NCBI GenBank assembly: GCA_035506535.1 | Contig: DATJPE010000030.1 | Location: 1-64,000, forward strand | DNA length: 64,000 nucleotides | Origin: Actinomycetes bacterium | Lineage (GTDB): Bacteria; Actinomycetota; Actinomycetes; DATJPE01 | Reading direction: 5' to 3' | Part shown: one piece after another, positions 2,753 through 50,970 of the stretch | How the letters are laid out: the number at the start of each line of letters is the position of its first letter | How positions within the stretch are numbered: the stretch's first letter is position 1 | Position numbers and translations under genes: made by a program | Notes under the pieces: model-generated | The model's input: the letters and a program-made list of their open reading frames with translations, nothing else | Told to the model about the DNA's origin: nothing | Databases searched by the model: none

Positions 2753-3942
2753 GCGCGCCGCCAGAGCATGACCCGATTGTTGCCCGAGTCGGCGACCGCG
2801 AGAGCCTCGCCCCGAAGCGAGAGCCCGTACGGCCAGCAGAGGGTGTCGTCCGCCAGGCCGGCCCAGCGGTTCTCGCCGTTCGAGGCGAAGTCCGGCTGGC
2901 CGAGGACGACGTCGGCAGGCGCCCCGACGCCGGTGGCGGTCTCGAAGGCGTCCCACACGAGCACGCGGTTGTTGGCGGTGTCGGCGACGGCCAGCCGGCC
3001 ACCGTCCAGGTCCGCCGCGTACGGGAAGCGCAGCCCGTCCGCGCGCTGCGGCGCGTAGGGCCACTCCGTGGCGGTGGTGAAGTCGGGCTGGCCGAGCACG
3101 AGGTCCGCTGGACGGTCCTCGTCGGGCTGTGGCCGCCACCCGAGGAGGCGGTGGTTGCCCGCGTCGGCGACGAGCAGGAGGTTCTCGTCCCCGGTGATGT
3201 GGTGCGGCCAGCGGAAGCTGTCCGGCCCGGGCTCGCCGCCACGGTTCTCCTCGCGCCCGTGCTCGTCCGGCTGGCCGAGGACCACGTCGGGCGGGGTCGC
3301 GGGGTCGGTCGGCAGGCCGCCGGACCAGCCGAGGACCCGGCGGTTGCCGGTGTCCGCCACATAGAAGCGACGGGCGACCACCGCGACGCCGAAGGGCCAG
3401 TACATCGACTCGCGGGAGCACCCGTGTCCGCGGTTCGGCTCCACCGCCTCCAGGTCCGGCTGGCCCAGGACGAGGTCGGGTTCGGCGTACGACGTCCGCG
3501 GCACCTCGGAGTAGACGAGGACCCGGTGGTGCCAGGCGTCGGCGACGACCAGGCGCCCGTCGTGGATCAGCACCCCCGTTGGCAGGTTCATGCCGGCGCG
3601 GATGCTGCGCCCGCCCGCGGCTGGTCCTTCGCTGGTGGCGTCGGGCTGCCCCAGCACGACGTCGCACGGCTGCTCGTCCCGGTCGGGCAGCCCCCACCAC
3701 AGGAGCACCCGGTGGTTGCCGGTGTCGGCGACGACGAGGACGTCGGTGTCGCCCACCCGGCCGATGTGCACGCCCCGGGGGGCGTACAGCCAGGACGCGG
3801 TCGGGGCCGCCGCCGGCAGCGCGAGTCCGTACGTCGCCGGCGCCCCGACGCGCACCGACGGACACCACCCGCCGCTGCGGTCGCCCTCGGGAGCGTCGGG
3901 CCGCGGCAGCGACCCGGCGCTCACGAACGCGACCGTCCTCAC
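2749..3942 (-). CDS. NHL-repeat six-bladed beta-propeller protein of the hydrogenase operon
   Basis: The 397-aa product is built from six clear NHL-type blades. The core (VADTGNHRVLLW and variants) occurs six times and is spaced by a recurrent DVVLGQPD element, seen at least five times. NHL propellers are usually protein-binding platforms. No signal peptide is visible, so it should be cytoplasmic like the hydrogenase. It starts at a GTG overlapping the stop of the Rieske gene and itself overlaps hypF, so it is translated as part of the maturation/accessory block. Its role is not established; scaffolding of the enzyme or of an electron-transfer partner is inference from position. Confidence 0.85.
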   Translation of the reverse strand: MRTVAFVSAGSLPRPDAPEGDRSGGWCPSVRVGAPATYGLALPAAAPTASWLYAPRGVHIGRVGDTDVLVVADTGNHRVLLWWGLPDRDEQPCDVVLGQPDATSEGPAAGGRSIRAGMNLPTGVLIHDGRLVVADAWHHRVLVYSEVPRTSYAEPDLVLGQPDLEAVEPNRGHGCSRESMYWPFGVAVVARRFYVADTGNRRVLGWSGGLPTDPATPPDVVLGQPDEHGREENRGGEPGPDSFRWPHHITGDENLLLVADAGNHRLLGWRPQPDEDRPADLVLGQPDFTTATEWPYAPQRADGLRFPYAADLDGGRLAVADTANNRVLVWDAFETATGVGAPADVVLGQPDFASNGENRWAGLADDTLCWPYGLSLRGEALAVADSGNNRVMLWRRA

Positions 3943-4655
3943 GGGTCCGCCCGCACCCACAGGCGCCCGTCCCGGACGCGCACGGCCAGCGGCTCGAGGG
4001 TCGCGCCTGGGGCGCTCAGGCACTCTCCGGTGAGCGCGTCGTAGGAGAAGCCGTGCCAGGGGCAGGTCAGAGTGCCGGAGCCCGCGTCGAGCACCGCGTC
4101 GTCCAGGGGCAGGGCCTGGTGGGCGCATTGGTTGAGGAAGGCCGCCATCCTGGCGCCGATGCGGACCACGACGACGTCGAGGCGACCTCCCGAGCCGGTC
4201 ATGACGTCCAACCGGGTGACCGCCCCGTCGGTCACGGCGGTGGCGTCCCCCGCGTCCATCCAGCCGTCGAGTCCGTCGCGCGGCCGGCCGATCGAGGACA
4301 GCGGGATCAGCACCGGACCGCTTCGTGTCGGGGGCTCGGGAGCCGGCGTCGTCGCCGGGGCGGTGCGGATGATGCCGTGCAGCGAGAACACCATCCGGAC
4401 CAGCGGGTCGTCGAGCAGCTCTTGCAGGGCGGCGCGGCCTGCCTCGTCCTGCCGGACCCGGCGGACGATGGTGATGAGCGCTGCCCGATGGACCGCCTCG
4501 ATGGACTCCCGGACGGCGTCGGCGGTGGCTCGCGCCGCCCCGGTGAGCGTCGAGGCGGCGCGCAGCGCCTCGTCCACCGAGGCCGCGAGCGCCTCCATCG
4601 TGGTCTCGGGGGCGACCGCCGTCTCCTCGGCCGGGCGCTCGGCCAGGCTGGTCAC
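3939..4655 (-). CDS. Rieske [2Fe-2S] protein of the hydrogenase operon (HhyE-like)
   Basis: The 238-aa protein has two parts. The C-terminal third is a Rieske domain with C177-x-H179 and C198-x2-H201 as the cluster ligands, in CAH and CPWHG contexts. The first ~110 residues are helical and contain DDPLVRMVFSLHGI, which resembles a segment of NifU-like proteins found in similar hydrogenase operons. No signal peptide or membrane segment is visible. In mycobacterial high-affinity hydrogenase operons an iron-sulfur protein of this kind is thought to pass electrons from the enzyme to the respiratory chain; that role is inferred here. GTG start overlaps the TPR gene stop by four bases and its own stop overlaps the NHL start. 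Confidence 0.88.
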   Translation of the reverse strand: MTSLAERPAEETAVAPETTMEALAASVDEALRAASTLTGAARATADAVRESIEAVHRAALITIVRRVRQDEAGRAALQELLDDPLVRMVFSLHGIIRTAPATTPAPEPPTRSGPVLIPLSSIGRPRDGLDGWMDAGDATAVTDGAVTRLDVMTGSGGRLDVVVVRIGARMAAFLNQCAHQALPLDDAVLDAGSGTLTCPWHGFSYDALTGECLSAPGATLEPLAVRVRDGRLWVRADP

Positions 4656-5899
4656 GACCCGCCGCCGGTCACCACGGGGTCGTCGCGGACGCTCCGGCGG
4701 GCGATCTCGTCCAGCAGGCCACGCACCGACGACGCGGCGTCGTACTCGTGCAGCTCCTCGAAGACGTACCGGCTCTCGACCAGCCGTCCTCGTGCCTCGT
4801 CGAACATGCCGAGGTGCGCCAGGGCGTTGCCCTGGTTGGCCAGGGCGCGCGCGTACCCCGCGGGGTCGGCGTCGCGGTCACGAACGCCCAGCACGGCCTC
4901 GTAGAGCTCGACGGCCTCGACGAGGTTCTCCCGGGGGTGGGTCGAGGGCGCGTAGACCAAGGCGTTGGCCAGGTTCAGCTGGGTGCTCGACCACTGTGCG
5001 GGGTGGGTCTCCGGCTGGTACACGGTGAGCGCGGCGCGCAGCGACCCCACGGCGACCCCGAAGCGCAGCTGGTCGGAGGCCTCGAGCATGGGCATGGTGA
5101 GGTACGCCGCCGCGAGGTTGGCGTGGGCAGCGGCGAACAGCTCCGGTGCGTCGTCGGGACCGATCGTCTGCAGGACGCAGTGGTAGTGGTGCACCGCCTC
5201 GGACAGCCGGGCCGAACCCTCGGCCGAGCCCTCGTGCAGGAGCGAGCCGAGCTCGAGGTGGAGCTCGGCGAGCGTCAGACCGAGGTCGGTCCCCCTCAGC
5301 AGGGCGATGCCCTCCTCCAGGGCTGTGCGGGCCGCGGCCTGATCCCGGGCAGCTCGACGGGCGCTCGCGAGCGCCCCGCAGAGCACCCCCGCCAGGGGCG
5401 GGTACGCCTCGCGCACCTCGGTAACCGCGCGGTCGAGCAGCTCGGCCGCGGCGAGGGGGTCGTCTCCCTCGAGCCGCAGCGCGGCAGCAGCAGCCAAGGC
5501 CATCGCCGCCAGCTCCGCATCGAGGCCGTCGGGCGACGGCGGGGAGTCGGAGCGGCCGAGAGACACGAGAACGACGTCGACGAGGACGTCCAGGGGGTGT
5601 CCGAGGTCGGCCCGCAGCCTCACCGGGTCCCCGTGGTCCGGGTCGAGGACGAAACGGTTGTACCGGCTGAGGGCATCCTCGCCGGCCATCGCGACGATCG
5701 CCCCTTCGAGATCCCCGCGCAGGGCCAGCTCGTGCCCGCGCAGGACCGGCGGCCAGGCCGTCGGGAGACGCCCGGCAATCAGCGCGTCGTAGGCCGCCTC
5801 GGCCGCCACGTCGGGGGGCAGCAGGAGGTAGCCGAACGGGAGCGGGAACGCCCCCACCGGCAACGGTCGGCGCGGCGTCTCGCGAGCCTGCTCAGCCAT
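4652..5899 (-). CDS. TPR-type helical repeat protein of the hydrogenase operon
   Basis: This 415-aa protein has no catalytic motif. Its second half is made of helical pairs of tetratricopeptide type, such as the blocks around LAAAYLTMPMLEASDQLRFGVA, LNLANALVYAP and ALANQGNALAHLGMFDEARG. The N-terminal 60 residues contain PLPVGAFPLPFGYLLLP. I start at ATG 5899, which overlaps the end of the 71-aa gene by eight bases. The open frame continues further upstream but runs through that gene. TPR proteins usually hold partner proteins; here a role in assembling or tethering the hydrogenase is inferred from the overlapping operon only. Confidence 0.8.
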   Translation of the reverse strand: MAEQARETPRRPLPVGAFPLPFGYLLLPPDVAAEAAYDALIAGRLPTAWPPVLRGHELALRGDLEGAIVAMAGEDALSRYNRFVLDPDHGDPVRLRADLGHPLDVLVDVVLVSLGRSDSPPSPDGLDAELAAMALAAAAALRLEGDDPLAAAELLDRAVTEVREAYPPLAGVLCGALASARRAARDQAAARTALEEGIALLRGTDLGLTLAELHLELGSLLHEGSAEGSARLSEAVHHYHCVLQTIGPDDAPELFAAAHANLAAAYLTMPMLEASDQLRFGVAVGSLRAALTVYQPETHPAQWSSTQLNLANALVYAPSTHPRENLVEAVELYEAVLGVRDRDADPAGYARALANQGNALAHLGMFDEARGRLVESRYVFEELHEYDAASSVRGLLDEIARRSVRDDPVVTGGGS

Positions 5900-6107
5900 T
5901 GATCGGCCCGCTGATGTCACGCTCGGCTCCCCGCTTGATGTACCCGGCACTGATCCGGGCCAACCGCTCGGTGCGATAGGTCTGGATGCGGCGGCGCACG
6001 ACGCCGTCGTCGAAGATGACGATGATGTCCACCGCCCACTGGCCCCGCTCGGGGACCACCTCCACCTCCACGCCGATGGCACCCATGACCACCTCGCCCG
6101 CCGTCAC
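5892..6107 (-). CDS. Small uncharacterised hydrogenase-operon protein, 71 aa
   Basis: The product reads as an alternating beta-strand pattern (GVEVEVVPERGQWAVDIIVIF) followed by a basic helix (VVRRRIQTYRTERLARISAGYIKRG). I recognise no family and see no cysteines, signal peptide or membrane segment. It starts at GTG 6107, overlapping the protease stop by four bases, and ends eight bases inside the TPR gene, so it is tightly coupled on both sides. That coupling, plus the non-random pattern, makes it a real gene. Its job is unknown; a small adaptor for the hydrogenase or its protease is possible. Confidence 0.75.
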   Translation of the reverse strand: MTAGEVVMGAIGVEVEVVPERGQWAVDIIVIFDDGVVRRRIQTYRTERLARISAGYIKRGAERDISGPING

Positions 6108-6940
6108 CCGGCTGCGTCCCTGCTGATCACGAGCGCTCCCTGGTCCTCGTCCCAGCGCGCAGCCCTGCGGCCCTCGGGGACCTCGCCGTGCAGGGCCTCG
6201 GTCACCAGGAGGCACCGGTCGCCTGCCGCGGTTCGCTGCTTGAGCATCAGACCTCCGGCGCCGGGCCCGCGCAAGGGCACCAGGACGATCTGGTCGTCAC
6301 GGGCCTGGACGACGGCGTGGCCGCCGGGGACGTAGCGAGCCGCGGTGGACGCGTCGAGGCGCAGGTAGCCGTCCGCGAACTCGACGTCGATGGAGTCCTC
6401 CGCGGGGCGGTCCTCGGGGGTGGACGGGGCAGCGGCGAAGGCCGGTTCGTCGCGGATGAGGCCGAGCACCTCGTGCATGGCTTTCTCCACCTCGGGGCCG
6501 AGCTCGGCGCCCGGCTCGAAGCTGGTGGCCTCGATGAGGAAGACCGTCACGTCGTCCGGGTAGTCCTCGCCCAGCAGCCATCGCGCGAAGGCGAGCGCGT
6601 TGTCCCAGCGGAAGGAGTGCGTGTGCAGCTCGGTCAGCGGCGGGAGGTCCTCCACAGCGGGACCCGGGACGCGAAACACCGTCCCCGCGGCGGCCCCGGT
6701 CCGGCAGGCGTCGACGATGACGACCCGGGCCGCGCCGCGCATCTGGAAGGCGACGTCCATCCCGGCGGTCCCGCCGTCGACGAGGCGCACCGAGCCGGGC
6801 ACCCCCCCGTCCCACAGGTGGCGGACGAGGATCGGGCCGACGCCGTCGTCGCCCCGGAGCAGGTTGCCGCATCCGACGACGAGCAGATCGCACGTGGGCA
6901 CCGACGACGCGGCGTCCACGTGCTCGGCTGCTCCCGCCAC
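6104..6940 (-). CDS. [NiFe]-hydrogenase maturation protease with an extra C-terminal domain
   Basis: Residues 15-170 are a HyaD/HybD-type (M52) endopeptidase, with VVGCGNLLRGDDGVG at 21-35, DGGTAGMD near 55 and a His-rich TELHTHSF near 105. Such proteases remove the C-terminal tail of the large subunit after nickel is inserted. The family is normally about 150-180 aa; this one has 278. The last ~90 residues form a separate mostly-beta segment (YLRLDASTAARYVPGG...MLKQRTAAGDRCLLV) that I cannot assign. It begins at GTG 6940, 12 bases after the large-subunit stop, which fits a dedicated protease for that enzyme. Confidence 0.9.
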   Translation of the reverse strand: MAGAAEHVDAASSVPTCDLLVVGCGNLLRGDDGVGPILVRHLWDGGVPGSVRLVDGGTAGMDVAFQMRGAARVVIVDACRTGAAAGTVFRVPGPAVEDLPPLTELHTHSFRWDNALAFARWLLGEDYPDDVTVFLIEATSFEPGAELGPEVEKAMHEVLGLIRDEPAFAAAPSTPEDRPAEDSIDVEFADGYLRLDASTAARYVPGGHAVVQARDDQIVLVPLRGPGAGGLMLKQRTAAGDRCLLVTEALHGEVPEGRRAARWDEDQGALVISRDAAG

Positions 6941-6952
6941 AGGGCGCCTCGG

Positions 6953-8557
6953 TCAGACGGCGCCGTTGATGACGAACTTGCTCAGCTCGCGTCCTCGGCG
7001 GTCATAGGCGTGGACGGTGCAGACCAGGCAGGAGTCGAAGCTGCGGGCGACGTGTCCCAGCTCGACCGGGTCGGAGGCGTCGACGATGGGGGAACCGACC
7101 ATGGCCTGCTCGATCGGCCCGAGGTTCTCGGCGGCGTCGCGGGGGCCGATGTTCCATGCGGTGGGCGTGACCACCTGGTAGTTCGCGATCTTGCCGTCCT
7201 CGATCACGATCCAGTCCGACAGCGACCCGCGCGCGGCCTCGGTCGAGCCGAATCCCCTGCCCTCGAGGTGCTCGACCGGCTTGGTGTAGAAGCTCTCGTG
7301 CAGGTCGAGCTGGTCGAGCCACTGCCGCACCCATCGGTAGTACTTCGGTGCCTCGTGCATGCGAGCGAGCTGGCGGGTCAGCACCGACGGCCCGATCTTC
7401 TGGAGCATGTCGAGGAACAGCGGGTCGTCGTCCTGGTGGGCCCCGGCGCCCGGTGCCGCGGCGGCGACCCGCCGGGCCAGCGGCCCGGCCTCCAGGGGGA
7501 CGTACCCGAGGTCCGGCACGTCGTAGCGAGGTGACTTGGCGAAGCTGTACTTACCCTGCTCGCGCCCGACCTTGGGGTCGATCGGCTTCGTCTCCCCCTC
7601 GAAGGGGTGCCGGGCCTGCGTCCCTTCGTAGAAGGAGTGCGCGACGTCCTCACGCACCCGCGCCTGGTCGAACTCGGCGAAGCGACCCCCTGCGTAGATG
7701 CCGGAGCGGTTGATCAGCGCCGCGTTCCGGCCCTCGATGGTCGGGTTCTCGTACAGGGACGGCTCGAAGTACGTGCCGGTCGCGATGTAGTTCCCGACGC
7801 CGGCGCCGTACTTGTCCAGTCCGATGTCCAGGCAGTAGCGGATGAAGAAGCCGCAGTCGCTGTCGTGCTGCGCCTCGTTCTCGTCGACCCAGGCGAGGAC
7901 GTCCTCCCAGGTGCGGTTCTCCAGCCAGCGGTCGATCGAGCAGCCCAGCCAGTACTTCTCCAGCCAGTTGTCCTTCCAGTGCTCGAGGATCGCGATCGAG
8001 CGGGTCACGTCGGACAGGGTCGGGGCGCACATGACGCCGCCAGGAACCATGAACGAGGAGTGCGGCCACTGACCGCCGAAGATGGCGTACACCTCGACCG
8101 GCTTCGCCGAGAGCACGACCCCGGGGCCGTAGCTGCTGCCGACGTACGGCGCGAAGCGGCGGACCGCCTCGTCGTACAGCGGCGACTTGGCGTAGTTCTT
8201 GTTGGTCAGGTCGATCGCGAACAGCGCGTAGAAGTAGCGCGGGATGCTCTGCAGCGTCTCGCAGGCCTGGGCGATGTTGCGAACCAGAGTCGCGTTCGGC
8301 GGAAGGTGCGTCTTCCATGCCGTGTCGAGGGCGTACGCCGACTTGTACAGGTGGCTGCCGCCGCAGATCCCGCAGATCCTCGGCGTCACGATCAGCCCCG
8401 CCTGGGGGTCCTTGCCGCGCAGGATGATCTCGAAGCCGCGGAACATCGCGGCCTCGGTCCACGCCGAGGTCACGACACCGTCCTCGATCGTGACGCGCAC
8501 GTCGAGGTCACCCTCGACCCTGCCCAGCGGGCTGACGAACAGGTCGACCGCGGTCAT
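6953..8557 (-). CDS. hhyL: [NiFe]-hydrogenase large subunit, group 1h (actinobacterial type)
   Basis: This 534-aa protein carries the nickel-iron site. The first cysteine pair is in RICGICGGSH (C62, C65) and the second in DSCLVCTVH (C510, C513, H516). The 18 residues after His516 should be removed by the neighbouring protease. DSC instead of the common DPC, together with the tail-less small subunit, points to group 1h (formerly group 5) enzymes that oxidise atmospheric or trace H2. ATG 8557 is preceded by GGAAGG at a good distance; the long upstream extension of the frame is not coding. The symbol follows mycobacterial usage. Confidence 0.95.
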   Translation of the reverse strand: MTAVDLFVSPLGRVEGDLDVRVTIEDGVVTSAWTEAAMFRGFEIILRGKDPQAGLIVTPRICGICGGSHLYKSAYALDTAWKTHLPPNATLVRNIAQACETLQSIPRYFYALFAIDLTNKNYAKSPLYDEAVRRFAPYVGSSYGPGVVLSAKPVEVYAIFGGQWPHSSFMVPGGVMCAPTLSDVTRSIAILEHWKDNWLEKYWLGCSIDRWLENRTWEDVLAWVDENEAQHDSDCGFFIRYCLDIGLDKYGAGVGNYIATGTYFEPSLYENPTIEGRNAALINRSGIYAGGRFAEFDQARVREDVAHSFYEGTQARHPFEGETKPIDPKVGREQGKYSFAKSPRYDVPDLGYVPLEAGPLARRVAAAAPGAGAHQDDDPLFLDMLQKIGPSVLTRQLARMHEAPKYYRWVRQWLDQLDLHESFYTKPVEHLEGRGFGSTEAARGSLSDWIVIEDGKIANYQVVTPTAWNIGPRDAAENLGPIEQAMVGSPIVDASDPVELGHVARSFDSCLVCTVHAYDRRGRELSKFVINGAV

Positions 8558-8603
8558 CGGGTTTCCTTCCGGTTCGGTTCCGGGCGGGCGTGGGCCGCAC
8601 GGG

Positions 8604-9575
8604 TCAGACGACGAACAGGTCCTCCTTGGACCACTGCGGGGCCGCGATCCTGGCGGCGGTTGCGTGGGCCATGTAGGTGAGGTGGTCGGTTCCTTCGGGG
8701 ACCTCCCGTGGGACGACTCCGCTGACCTTCTGGGTCTTGAACACGGTGCCGGGGGCCAGGTCGAAGAACGGGAACTCGGGTTCGGTGCACCCCGTGCACG
8801 GCATGCCGGCACGCGTCTTTGAGGACTGGCGGTTCCAGAGGATGCGGTTGCACGGGGAGTGGGTCATCGGCCCGCGGCAGCCGAACTCGTAGAACAGGCA
8901 GCCGGTCCGTGTGCCCTCGCCGAAGGCGAGGGTCGGCTGCTTGTACTCGAAGAACTGCACGCGCGTGCAGCCGGTCTGAGTGAAGGTCTTGAAGAACGTC
9001 TGTGGCCGGTGCAGCTCGTCGAGGGCGATGTCGCCCGCCCGGCCGGTCGCGAGCGCCACCAGGATCTGGGTGATCCAGTCGGGGTGTGCGGGGCACCCGG
9101 GGACGTTGATGACAGGCAGGCCCATCTTGGACCGGAAGTCCGGTCCAAGGAAGCCGCCCTTCTCGCGCTTGAGGAACTGCAGGCCGGTCGAGTCGGTGGG
9201 GTTGGGGTCCATCGCGGGGATCCCACCCCAGCAGGCACAGTCACCGATGGCCACGACCACGCTGGCGGCGGCCGCGAGCTCGGTGACCCATTCCTTCATC
9301 GGGCGGTCGGCGAACATGTCGTAGCGTCCCGACCCGTCGGGCCCCTCCATCACGGTGCCCTCGAACACGAAGATGTCCAGGGGTCGCTCACCGCGTGCGC
9401 AGGCGTGGAAGAGCTTCTGCGCGTTGTCGCCCAGCTCGAGACCGAGGGAGGGGTGCCAGAGCAGCTCCAGCCCGAAGTCGGTGATCAGGTCGACGACGTT
9501 CGGCTCGTCGGCGTTGAGGAACGACATCGTGTTACCGCTGCAGGCGCCACCCTGGAACCACAGCACTGACGACAT
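8604..9575 (-). CDS. hhyS: [NiFe]-hydrogenase small subunit, group 1h (cytoplasmic)
   Basis: The 323-aa electron-transfer subunit holds three iron-sulfur clusters. Visible cysteines are C12, C113/C115, C161, C203, C226, C233, C242, C260 and C263. The usual N-terminal C-x-x-C for the proximal cluster is C12-S-G-N15: the second cysteine is replaced. The Ralstonia actinobacterial-type hydrogenase is known to use an aspartate ligand at this cluster, so this is a family trait rather than damage. There is no twin-arginine signal peptide, unlike periplasmic group 1 enzymes, so the enzyme is cytoplasmic. It precedes the large subunit by 46 bases. Confidence 0.95.
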   Translation of the reverse strand: MSSVLWFQGGACSGNTMSFLNADEPNVVDLITDFGLELLWHPSLGLELGDNAQKLFHACARGERPLDIFVFEGTVMEGPDGSGRYDMFADRPMKEWVTELAAAASVVVAIGDCACWGGIPAMDPNPTDSTGLQFLKREKGGFLGPDFRSKMGLPVINVPGCPAHPDWITQILVALATGRAGDIALDELHRPQTFFKTFTQTGCTRVQFFEYKQPTLAFGEGTRTGCLFYEFGCRGPMTHSPCNRILWNRQSSKTRAGMPCTGCTEPEFPFFDLAPGTVFKTQKVSGVVPREVPEGTDHLTYMAHATAARIAAPQWSKEDLFVV

Positions 9576-9641
9576 CTCATGTCCTTTCGGCGCGGTCTGG
9601 CGGTCGTGGTCGGGCGCGCTGTGCAGCGCGGGCGGGACGGG

Positions 9642-10298
9642 TCAGATGGGGGGAGAGGTCTTCAGCTCCTGGCCGAAGGCCTTGGCGACGGAGACGAGGA
9701 AGCCCAAGCCGCGGGAGACGTCGTCGTCCTTCAGCACCTTCATCAGCGACAGCACGCCGCTCACGCGAGGTTGCTGGGTCTCGGCCTGCTCGGCGCCGCG
9801 CACCAGGGCGCGCCCGCCCATCCCCGCGATGCCGATGACCCTGGGGTCGCCGAGGTCGGAACGCAGGAGCAGGTCGATCGTCGGGAGCAGGTCGAGCAGG
9901 GCCGGCGTGAGCTTCGCCAACCCCTGGGTGAGTTCGACCACCTGCTCGGCGGTGGGCATCCCGCGGCCGCTCTCCATGCCGCGCAGGTCATCGACCCCTT
10001 GGGAGAGCGACTCGGTGATCGTGTCCCCGCGCTGCAGCAGTCCGTCGAGGGCCACGGCGAACAGCGCCAGGAGATCGACGTGATCGAGGAGGGTGTTGAG
10101 CGACCGGGAGACGTCCGGGTCGTCGAGCCGGGCGACCAGCGCCTCGACGCGGTCGGGCTCCACCGAGGGTTCGAGGACTGAGACCACAGGCTCCTCCGAC
10201 CGGTCGTCGTCGTCGTTGGTTGCGCCAGATGGTTCGGATAGCGACCCCGAACGCCCTCGCCGGGGCATCGACCCAATCCCACGTGGTTGCCCGGACAC
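9642..10298 (-). CDS. DUF1641 protein, first gene of the hydrogenase operon
   Basis: The C-terminal part (SGVLSLMKVLKDDDVSRGLGFLVSVAKAFGQEL) matches the DUF1641 signature seen in hydrogenase and formate dehydrogenase operons. The middle is helical with leucine-rich stretches (VDLLALFAVALDGLLQRG, LLDLLPTIDLLLRSDLGD). It lies 66 bases before the small subunit on the same strand and is the operon's most upstream gene. The start is unsure: the longest frame begins at 10298, but the first ~35 residues are hydrophilic and Asp-rich, and ATG 10268 or a later GTG would keep the whole conserved part. Function is unknown. Confidence 0.8.
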   Translation of the reverse strand: MSGQPRGIGSMPRRGRSGSLSEPSGATNDDDDRSEEPVVSVLEPSVEPDRVEALVARLDDPDVSRSLNTLLDHVDLLALFAVALDGLLQRGDTITESLSQGVDDLRGMESGRGMPTAEQVVELTQGLAKLTPALLDLLPTIDLLLRSDLGDPRVIGIAGMGGRALVRGAEQAETQQPRVSGVLSLMKVLKDDDVSRGLGFLVSVAKAFGQELKTSPPI

Positions 10299-48828: not shown

Positions 48829-49977
48829 TCAGCGGTCGGCGTCGCCGAGCACGAACGCGAGCGAGGCGAGGACCGGCACCAGCTGCCCCACGCGCGTGCC
48901 GGGCAGCAGGGCCTCCAGCAGCTGCAGGTGCGCGTAGGACGGGGTCCGCATCTTCAGTCGCCACGGTGTGCGCTCCCCCCGGGAGACCAGGTAGTACCCG
49001 GCCGCGCCAAGGGGCGACTCGGTCCAGACGTAGGCCTCGCCCTCGGGCACGCGCAGCGACTTCGGCATGCGCACCGACACCGGGCCTGGCCCGCAGGCGT
49101 CGACGCGATCCGCGCTGACCTCCGCGAGGTCCAGGGCGACCCTGGCCTGCTCCGCGAGCAGCTCCAGCCTCGCGCGCGCGTCCCCCTCGTCGCACAGCGG
49201 CACGACGAGTCGCTCGCCGAGCTCGGCGTAGGCGAGGTACGGGTCGTCGCGGCGCACGTCGAGGTCGTAGCCGCTCGCCCTGGCCACCGCTCCCGAAAGG
49301 CCGTACGGCTCGACGAGGTCCGGCCGCACGACGCCCACCCCTCGCGTCGCGGCCTCGAAGCGCGGGTCGTCGAACAGGCCCGTCGAGACCTCGTCCAGGG
49401 CTGACTCGGCCACGCGCAGCGCCTCGCGGACCCGAGACGTCCACCCCTCGGGGATCTCGGCCCGCAGGCCACCGACCTGGTTGAGCATCGCGTGGATCCG
49501 CCCGCCCGAGACCTCCTCCAGGACCCGTTGCAGCGCCTCGCGTCCGTCGATCCCGCGCACCCGCTCGGCGGGACCGTCGAGGGGGAAGGTGCCGAGGAAG
49601 GCGAGGTGCGAGAGCGCCCGGCCGACCTCGGCCAGCAGGGTCCGGGCCCACGTCGCGCGAGGCGGCGCCTCGATGCCGAGCATGCGCTCGAGGAGCAGAG
49701 CGATTCCCAGCTCGCCCGAGAACGCCGCCAGCCAGTCGTGCCGGTTCGCCAGCACGAGGGCCTGACGATAGTCGCGGACCTCGAACAGCTTCTCGGCGCC
49801 GCGATGCATCAGCCCGATGTGCGCGCGGGCCGTGGTGATGAGGTCGCCGTCGACCTCCAAGGACAGCCGCAGACCCGGGTGGCTCGACGGGTGGGCGGAA
49901 CCCAGGTCGAGGACGAGGTCCACGGGCTCGCCGGGCACGAGCGCCGCCAGCGGGGACGTCGCGACGTGCACGGTCAC
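48829..49977 (-). CDS. Stand-alone NuoD-like (complex I 49-kDa) subunit, NuoD2
   Basis: The 382-aa protein is homologous to the quinone-site subunit NuoD. It keeps the two histidines of the quinone-binding loop in GSAHPSSHPGLRL (His29, His33), the segment HIGLMHRGAEKL with Arg59, and Tyr70 in the EVRDYRQ stretch that corresponds to the quinone tyrosine. No hydrogenase-type Cys pairs are present, so it is not a NiFe enzyme. No other nuo gene is nearby. It is shorter at the C-terminus than canonical NuoD. GTG 49977 overlaps the methyltransferase stop by four bases. Its partners are unknown. Confidence 0.88.
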   Translation of the reverse strand: MTVHVATSPLAALVPGEPVDLVLDLGSAHPSSHPGLRLSLEVDGDLITTARAHIGLMHRGAEKLFEVRDYRQALVLANRHDWLAAFSGELGIALLLERMLGIEAPPRATWARTLLAEVGRALSHLAFLGTFPLDGPAERVRGIDGREALQRVLEEVSGGRIHAMLNQVGGLRAEIPEGWTSRVREALRVAESALDEVSTGLFDDPRFEAATRGVGVVRPDLVEPYGLSGAVARASGYDLDVRRDDPYLAYAELGERLVVPLCDEGDARARLELLAEQARVALDLAEVSADRVDACGPGPVSVRMPKSLRVPEGEAYVWTESPLGAAGYYLVSRGERTPWRLKMRTPSYAHLQLLEALLPGTRVGQLVPVLASLAFVLGDADR

Positions 49978-50957
49978 GAAGGCATCATGCCGGGCTCGGG
50001 GAGGCCGCGACCGTGCAGCAGCCAGCCGAAGCGCCCCGGCCCGTCGGGGTCGAGCAGCAGTCGGGCATCGGCCGCCTCGGCCAGGCGGCGCGCGTACGTC
50101 CGCGGGTCCGTGCGGGCGTCCGCCGCCGGCGGCAGGCGGGCGCTGACTCCGAGGACGGGCAGCAGGTCCGCCTGCCGCGCGAGCAGCGTCCACCCGTCCG
50201 AGGGCGAGGCGGCTGCGCACGAGTCGAGGGCCACGTGCGCGGTCAGGTCGCAGCTGCCGTCCGGGACGGGCGGGACCCGTGCGCCGTCGCGGTAGCCGGC
50301 GAGCGAGCCGGCGGGCAGGCTCGCGCGGTCGTCGCGCGTATGTCCGTAGTCGATCGCCAGCGCCGCTCCCGCCTCGACCCGGTCGGCGAGGGAGGACCAC
50401 AGGAGGTCGCGGGGGCGGCCGACTTCGGCCCGCTCGCCTGTCGCCAGGGGCCACCACCGGTCGAGCCACGCCAGGTCCGCCGCCGCCGGCTCCGGGCCGA
50501 GACGCTCGGTGCCGGTGGCCGGGTCGACGAGGACGAGGCGGGTCACGCCGGAGTCGTCGCACGCGACGAGGGGACAGGGCAGCGCATCGAGCAGCTCGTT
50601 GGCGAGCAGCAGGCCGACGACGTCGGCGGGCGGCTGATTCGCCCACTCCACCCGGCCCGCCAGGCCGGCCGGTCGCCCTGAGATGTCCACACCGATCAGC
50701 CGCCACCGCTGCGGCGCGTGCGCGGCGAGGAGCGTGAGCAGCGATCCGTCACCGGCCCCGACGTCCACCACGACGAAGCCGTCCGGTTCGCCCAGCGCGA
50801 CGTCCAGGTCGCGGGCCAGCCGGAGGAGCGCGCCGGCGAAGGCGGCCGAGGTGGCGCAGGTGCGGAAGTGGGCGGTCCCGCCCGCGGCGGTCCGGAAGAA
50901 CCCGGCCGGTCCGTAGAGGGCGTCCTGCCACGCCTGCTCCCAGGGGACGTACGCCAT
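49974..50957 (-). CDS. MidA/NDUFAF7-type SAM-dependent methyltransferase (DUF185)
   Basis: The 327-aa protein has a SAM loop VVDVGAGDGSLL (64-75), ANELLDALP (about 119-127), AIDYGHTRDD and CDLTAHVALDS, which together match the NDUFAF7/MidA family. The eukaryotic member dimethylates an arginine of the NuoD homologue NDUFS2 during complex I assembly. Here the gene overlaps a NuoD-like gene that keeps that arginine. I prefer ATG 50957, seven bases after a TAGCGT box, over GTG 50966, which would lie inside that box. Confidence 0.88.
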   Translation of the reverse strand: MAYVPWEQAWQDALYGPAGFFRTAAGGTAHFRTCATSAAFAGALLRLARDLDVALGEPDGFVVVDVGAGDGSLLTLLAAHAPQRWRLIGVDISGRPAGLAGRVEWANQPPADVVGLLLANELLDALPCPLVACDDSGVTRLVLVDPATGTERLGPEPAAADLAWLDRWWPLATGERAEVGRPRDLLWSSLADRVEAGAALAIDYGHTRDDRASLPAGSLAGYRDGARVPPVPDGSCDLTAHVALDSCAAASPSDGWTLLARQADLLPVLGVSARLPPAADARTDPRTYARRLAEAADARLLLDPDGPGRFGWLLHGRGLPEPGMMPS

Positions 50958-50964
50958 CTCGGCC

Positions 50965-50970
50965 ACGCTA
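50965..50970 (-). promoter_or_regulatory. TAGCGT -10 box for the methyltransferase/NuoD2 pair
   Basis: On the minus strand TAGCGT is followed by seven bases and ATG 50957. It overlaps the alternative GTG start at 50966, which argues against that start. Confidence 0.5.

Follow-up and report, generated by a model that had tools for sequence, protein, structure and literature searches.

The midA-nuoD2 pair and its products

The window analysed here is a stretch of 64,000 nucleotides from an actinomycete contig, in which a methyltransferase gene and a nuoD-like gene overlap on the minus strand. The features of the window considered in this work are as follows:

48829..49977, minus strand: nuoD2, 382 aa, probable D (49-kDa) subunit of a second complex I, displaced from its operon
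49974..50957, minus strand: midA, COG1565/NDUFAF7-type methyltransferase, ATG start
50965..50970, minus strand: TAGCGT, candidate -10 box of a leaderless midA-nuoD2 transcript (putative role, proposed from the sequence)
3939-10298, minus strand: NiFe hydrogenase (PF00374, PF01058) with HycI-type protease, DUF1641 and Rieske proteins

The midA open reading frame spans 49974-50966, with the ATG start at 50957 and an in-frame GTG at 50966. Its stop codon overlaps the nuoD2 start in a minus-strand GTGA, and the TAGCGT box lies 7 nt before the midA ATG; a sequence-only reading of this DNA had described both the overlap and the upstream box, and the ORF coordinates and sequence agree with it. The box occupies the position expected for the -10 box of a leaderless actinobacterial mRNA and may possibly serve as one, while scans for a sigma-70 consensus and for a terminator gave no match. 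Since the nuoD2-midA pair is conserved across many families, it represents more than chance. In relatives NuoD2 and MidA are kept near folate and pantothenate genes. Among the named relatives are Streptomyces, Actinomadura, Streptacidiphilus and a Nanopelagicales MAG. Identity to the nearest relatives is 55-59%, a distance at which synonymous sites would be saturated.

NuoD2 is a NuoD homologue and not a standard NuoD equivalog. Its PF00346 match (167.7 bits) exceeds the Pfam cut-off, and its score against TIGR01962, the NCBIfam NuoD equivalog, is 262 bits where 459 are needed. AlphaFold models of NuoD2 and MidA had pLDDT values of 83 and 89, and the fold of the NuoD2 model resembles the 49-kDa chains of complex I (TM 0.80-0.84). 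The sequence has the previously noted quinone-loop histidines, both present in an HPSSH motif, and the HRGAEKL segment containing Arg59. The tyrosine that the same reading placed at the quinone position is in fact Trp82, which aligns with Tyr87 of Thermus Nqo4 (NRHDWLAAF vs PRMDYLHSF), and tryptophan stands at the quinone-Tyr position in 182 distinct Arg-type NuoD2 sequences. No CxxC nickel ligands of a [NiFe] hydrogenase large subunit occur in the NuoD2 sequence.

The methyltransferase is a true MidA/NDUFAF7 homologue with the COG1565 fold. It matches PF02636 with 71.1 bits against a curated cut-off of 23.3, and its alignments show conserved GxG, NExxD, DYG and DxTAHV motifs. The MidA model fits the solved MidA/COG1565 structures 5ztz and 4g67 with TM 0.76-0.78 (0.70-0.78 overall for 5ztz, 4g67 and 1zkd), against about 0.3 for unrelated methyltransferases.

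Two NuoD types and the distribution of MidA

The genome (3.35 Mb, 96.5% complete) contains two NuoD genes, and midA is its sole PF02636 gene. The housekeeping NuoD (NuoD1) lies on this contig too, 70 kb from the pair, as part of a full nuo operon. The arginine at the position of Arg59 is reported to be dimethylated in bovine and human complex I and in that of Pichia and Paracoccus, unmodified in E. coli and replaced by threonine in Thermus (PMC3750175, PMC8042128). The dimethylating enzyme is NDUFAF7 (PMC3829151), and the arginine of NDUFS2 fills a space that in Thermus is taken by Arg83 of the NuoB homologue (PMC8042128). NuoD1 reads HTGIEK, with threonine at the position of the NDUFAF7-dimethylated arginine. 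All 30 of the housekeeping NuoD loci listed have this threonine, and the NuoD2 sequences in the same listing carry HR[GAS]xEK. Across 230 distinct NuoD sequences, the residues at this site and at the quinone-Tyr position are Arg/Trp in 182, Thr/Tyr in 34 and Arg/Tyr in 14. One NuoD2 (locus L284, genome G498) reads NRSVEKL, with Asn for the otherwise invariant His before the target arginine; its lineage lacks MidA.

The partner position in NuoB is the R/T of VAG(R/T), which by our own count we take to be Arg83 of Thermus Nqo6. The arginine of the NuoB FRASPRQ segment had been considered as the partner of Arg59 and was dropped. NuoD with Thr pairs with NuoB with Arg in 70 loci, and NuoD with Arg pairs with NuoB with Thr in 27 loci having Trp and 7 having Tyr in NuoD, some of these loci overlapping so that the counts are not independent. 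Two odd rows (L183, L190) proved to be pattern artefacts, the nuo2 operon there having no nuoD. This reciprocal Arg/Thr swap between VAG(R/T) of NuoB and position 59 of NuoD tells the two actinobacterial complexes apart, with no true exception in the counted loci.

As the genome has a single MidA and NuoD1 carries threonine, NuoD2 is the only NuoD candidate substrate. We surveyed 375 genomes of the class, sampled evenly and without phylogenetic weighting; this genome being the only one from its order, a survey at that level is uninformative. MidA and NuoD2 occurred together in 124 genomes, NuoD2 alone in 25, MidA alone in 5 and neither in 221 (Fisher's p = 2.7e-66, a value that ignores phylogeny). 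In one mixed family (f78), MidA was found in 17/17 genomes with NuoD2 vs 0/20 without it; three others (f6, f8, f80) behaved likewise, and f66 and f79 obeyed the same rule except for genomes 63-70% complete. The one clear exception to the co-occurrence is a MidA match at G303:C324:11352-11837, in a genome 94% complete in which no NuoD2 was found. In 117 genomes MidA and NuoD2 share a contig and lie at most 15 kb apart, in tandem, convergent or divergent orientation. In two loci of f15 (L212, L213), which lie at contig ends, MidA and nuoD2 are convergent neighbours, and L212 also has nuoC2 upstream. MidA accompanies NuoH2 in all 91 genomes that have the latter (89 detected by Pfam, 2 by tblastn), and in families f19, f24, f30, f45 and f59 midA directly follows nuoN2 on the same strand.

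The sequence-only reading had proposed the two proteins as enzyme and substrate, with Arg59 as the target, and the single MidA, the threonine of NuoD1 and the way MidA tracks Arg-type NuoD2 all support this pairing. It had tied the proposal to joint occurrence of the two genes and to conservation of the arginine. The genes do occur apart in some lineages, but the arginine is conserved even there. Genomes of f17, f18, f21, f32 and f48 have an in-operon Arg-type NuoD2 and no detectable MidA, and some lineages without a membrane arm also lack MidA, so the arginine does not depend on MidA. The survey it had suggested, for co-occurrence and for a complete nuo operon, showed that MidA follows NuoD2 and that a separate full operon exists.

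The nuoB2-nuoC2-nuoI2 locus and the missing membrane arm

In a tree of 86 NuoD sequences, housekeeping NuoD forms one clade and all NuoD2, whether in-operon or orphan, form the other, each with 99% SH-aLRT support. The orphan NuoD2 of Actinomycetia constitute a single clade (100%), and the NuoD2 of genomes without the membrane arm have long branches. In several other actinobacterial families, NuoD2 lies inside a second operon, nuoA2-B2-C2-D2-H2-I2-J2-K2-L2-M2-N2, which lacks E, F and G, whereas in Streptomyces-like genomes, and in others whose NuoD2 is an orphan, the nuo2 operon has no nuoD. Together with the tree, these D-less operons make NuoD2 most plausibly the D subunit of a second complex I without the EFG (NADH) module, displaced from its operon. 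For Streptomyces, two papers already describe the displacement of nuoD2 (PMC3765725, PMC8388888).

The remaining peripheral subunits are encoded elsewhere on the contig:

C30:139600-140061: nuoB2, second-complex NuoB
ending at C30:140603: nuoC2, directly after nuoB2
ending at about C30:141094: nuoI2, directly after nuoC2

This locus lies 89 kb from the pair and about 7 kb past nuoN1. Each of the three genes overlaps the next at stop and start codons; they diverge from korA-korB, encoding a 2-oxoacid:ferredoxin oxidoreductase, and are followed by htpX. All four cysteines of N2 are present in NuoB2, as are both 4Fe-4S motifs in NuoI2. The pair had been described as having no complex I neighbours, which is right locally, there being no other nuo gene near it in the window, but not at the distance of nuoB2-C2-I2. 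The proposal of a self-contained two-gene module, possibly a separate quinone complex, does not stand: NuoD2 falls in the second-complex clade, and nuoB2-C2-I2 together with the D-less nuo2 operons led us to reject it. The B2-C2-I2 locus contains no genes for the membrane subunits NuoA2, H2 and J2-N2, and a genome-wide search of the assembly found a single NuoH and no NuoH2. At 96.5% completeness, the absence of nuoH2 is probable rather than certain, although the B2-C2-I2 locus shows no break on either side.

Sixty genomes of the class, a few of them incomplete, have NuoD2 without NuoH2. A second NuoB was found in about 48 of the 51 such genomes searched, and every one of this set has a NuoH1-type match. 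We fetched 20 membrane-less loci, and all consist of a short nuoB2-nuoC2 operon without membrane subunits. In 19 of them nuoI2 follows nuoC2, the remaining one being cut by a contig end, and Kor is adjacent in 13 and not adjacent in 7. With the present locus and that of genome G063 included, all four N2 cysteines are kept in NuoB2 of 22/22 loci (four rows judged by eye) and both NuoI2 motifs in 21/22; Arg59 is kept in all 26 NuoD2 inspected. The N-terminal NWGRRYSLW segment and the FIRxGVxPFAxGPRQ loop of NuoB2, the parts that in complex I face NuoH and the quinone tunnel, are lost in 20/22 membrane-less loci and kept in all six controls that have the arm. Ten NuoD2, all orphans, no longer show the quinone-loop His pattern, and those that can be assigned come from membrane-less lineages. 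In G063 (L184, G063:C1:446000-465000, positions 6592-8888), nuoH2 has shrunk to about 120 residues and nuoA2 is shortened, with nuoB2, nuoC2 and nuoI2 intact; judged by its sequence, this locus seems to be partway through losing the membrane arm.

Proposed function, alternatives and related systems

Our preferred explanation, to which we assign a probability of roughly 0.7, has NuoD2 as the D subunit of the second complex, now encoded apart, and MidA as the maturation enzyme of that complex, acting on Arg59; having shed subunits A, H and J-N of the membrane arm, the complex would remain as a predicted soluble NuoB2-C2-D2-I2 module. MidA would symmetrically dimethylate Arg59, a residue adjacent to the NuoB cluster N2 in homologues, and would be expected to modify NuoD2 ahead of its assembly with NuoB2. 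The module would hold three 4Fe-4S clusters and would most likely be soluble or only peripherally bound. The retained subunits suggest an electron path that begins with reduced ferredoxin, or with the neighbouring KorAB as direct donor, and runs through the two NuoI2 clusters to N2 in NuoB2, presumably ending at a site between NuoB2 and NuoD2. We see an even chance that this describes a widespread actinobacterial enzyme of B, C, D and I only, working off the membrane, which would pass electrons from ferredoxin or 2-oxoacid:ferredoxin oxidoreductase to a soluble acceptor other than quinone, using the former quinone site, and for which MidA would be the dedicated arginine methyltransferase.

Several other explanations deserve consideration. 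The four proteins could form an alternative ferredoxin-oxidising head on the housekeeping membrane arm (NuoH1 etc.), giving two heads on one proton pump. All four subunits of a ferredoxin-using head are kept (NdhK, J, H and I make up this head in photosynthetic complex I), NuoH1-type matches accompany every searched NuoD2 without NuoH2, and the present NuoD2 has both quinone-loop histidines. Yet the membrane-facing parts of NuoB2 are gone in 20/22 membrane-less loci vs 0/6 controls, and for this reason we disfavour a shared arm and hold it to be unlikely; the loss of the quinone-loop His pattern in ten membrane-less NuoD2 also speaks against it. Very improbable, in our judgement, is that nuoB2-C2-I2 and nuoD2-midA are functionless remnants of the second complex. 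The missing membrane subunits, the absence of MidA as well in some lineages, the long branches of membrane-less NuoD2 and the shrunken nuoH2 and nuoA2 of G063 would fit such decay, but reading frames are intact and Arg59 persists. The uniform retention of the cluster ligands also counts against it, as does the fact that two unlinked loci have been kept together in many families.

MidA might instead methylate a different protein, its link to nuoD2 reflecting only an ancestral gene neighbourhood, and the families in which the two genes occur apart would agree with this. In mixed families, however, MidA is lost or kept together with NuoD2, as in f78, and the relative orientation of the genes varies while their proximity stays, which argues for selection rather than simple operon inheritance; a different substrate is accordingly quite unlikely. 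Finally, the pair could stand apart as a quinone- or redox-linked unit that works for the high-affinity hydrogenase in the window, which is likely the one at 3939-10298, about 40 kb away with its Rieske and DUF1641 partners. We found no such link, which the sequence-only reading had raised: in relatives the pair stays with folate and pantothenate genes, and its partner subunits are found with korAB and not with a hydrogenase, so that this idea is hardly credible.

Compared with the NDUFAF7/MidA system acting on NDUFS2 Arg85 in mitochondria and Paracoccus, the present one has the same COG1565 fold and motifs, the same HRGxEKL target-type arginine and, as in the Arg-type complexes here, Thr at the paired NuoB position; it differs in that the predicted substrate is one of two NuoD per cell, in a second complex. 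With Streptomyces nuo2, as described in PMC3765725 and PMC8388888, it shares the NuoD2 orthologue group, the gene neighbourhood, an EFG-less second complex and a nuoD2 outside the operon, but our organism has no A2, H2 or J2-N2; the parts of these papers covered make no mention of MidA. Like the 11-subunit, ferredoxin-type complex I (NDH-1 of photosynthesis, Fpo-like), it has no E, F or G and has a presumed NuoI-type ferredoxin entry and the B, C, D, I set, whereas this genome lacks a membrane arm and Trp replaces the quinone Tyr. The small and large subunits of soluble [NiFe] hydrogenases are homologous to NuoB and NuoD, and a soluble B2-D2 would resemble this ancestral arrangement, although NuoD2 lacks the CxxC nickel ligands. 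In the literature covered, mostly outside subscription journals, we found no report of a link between MidA and a second complex I, nor of a soluble NuoBCDI module or membrane-less form; these two points appear new here, the displaced nuoD2 being already known in Streptomyces.

MidA/NDUFAF7 is a complex I assembly factor important in humans. One cell that holds both a Thr-type, unmethylatable NuoD and an Arg-type, methylatable NuoD offers a natural internal control, with which one can test directly whether the dimethyl-arginine serves assembly, N2 stability or N2 potential. The findings also suggest that a complex I stripped of its membrane arm can survive as a soluble redox enzyme. This would run opposite to the accepted course of events, in which complex I arose from a soluble hydrogenase.

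A further NuoB-like match at C63:222.6 kb was set aside, as there is no nuo operon there and its neighbours look hydrogenase-like. The surrounding region (L194, G000:C63:213000-232000) places this additional PF01058 match near a possible hydrogenase large subunit and a maturation protease, perhaps a second hydrogenase.
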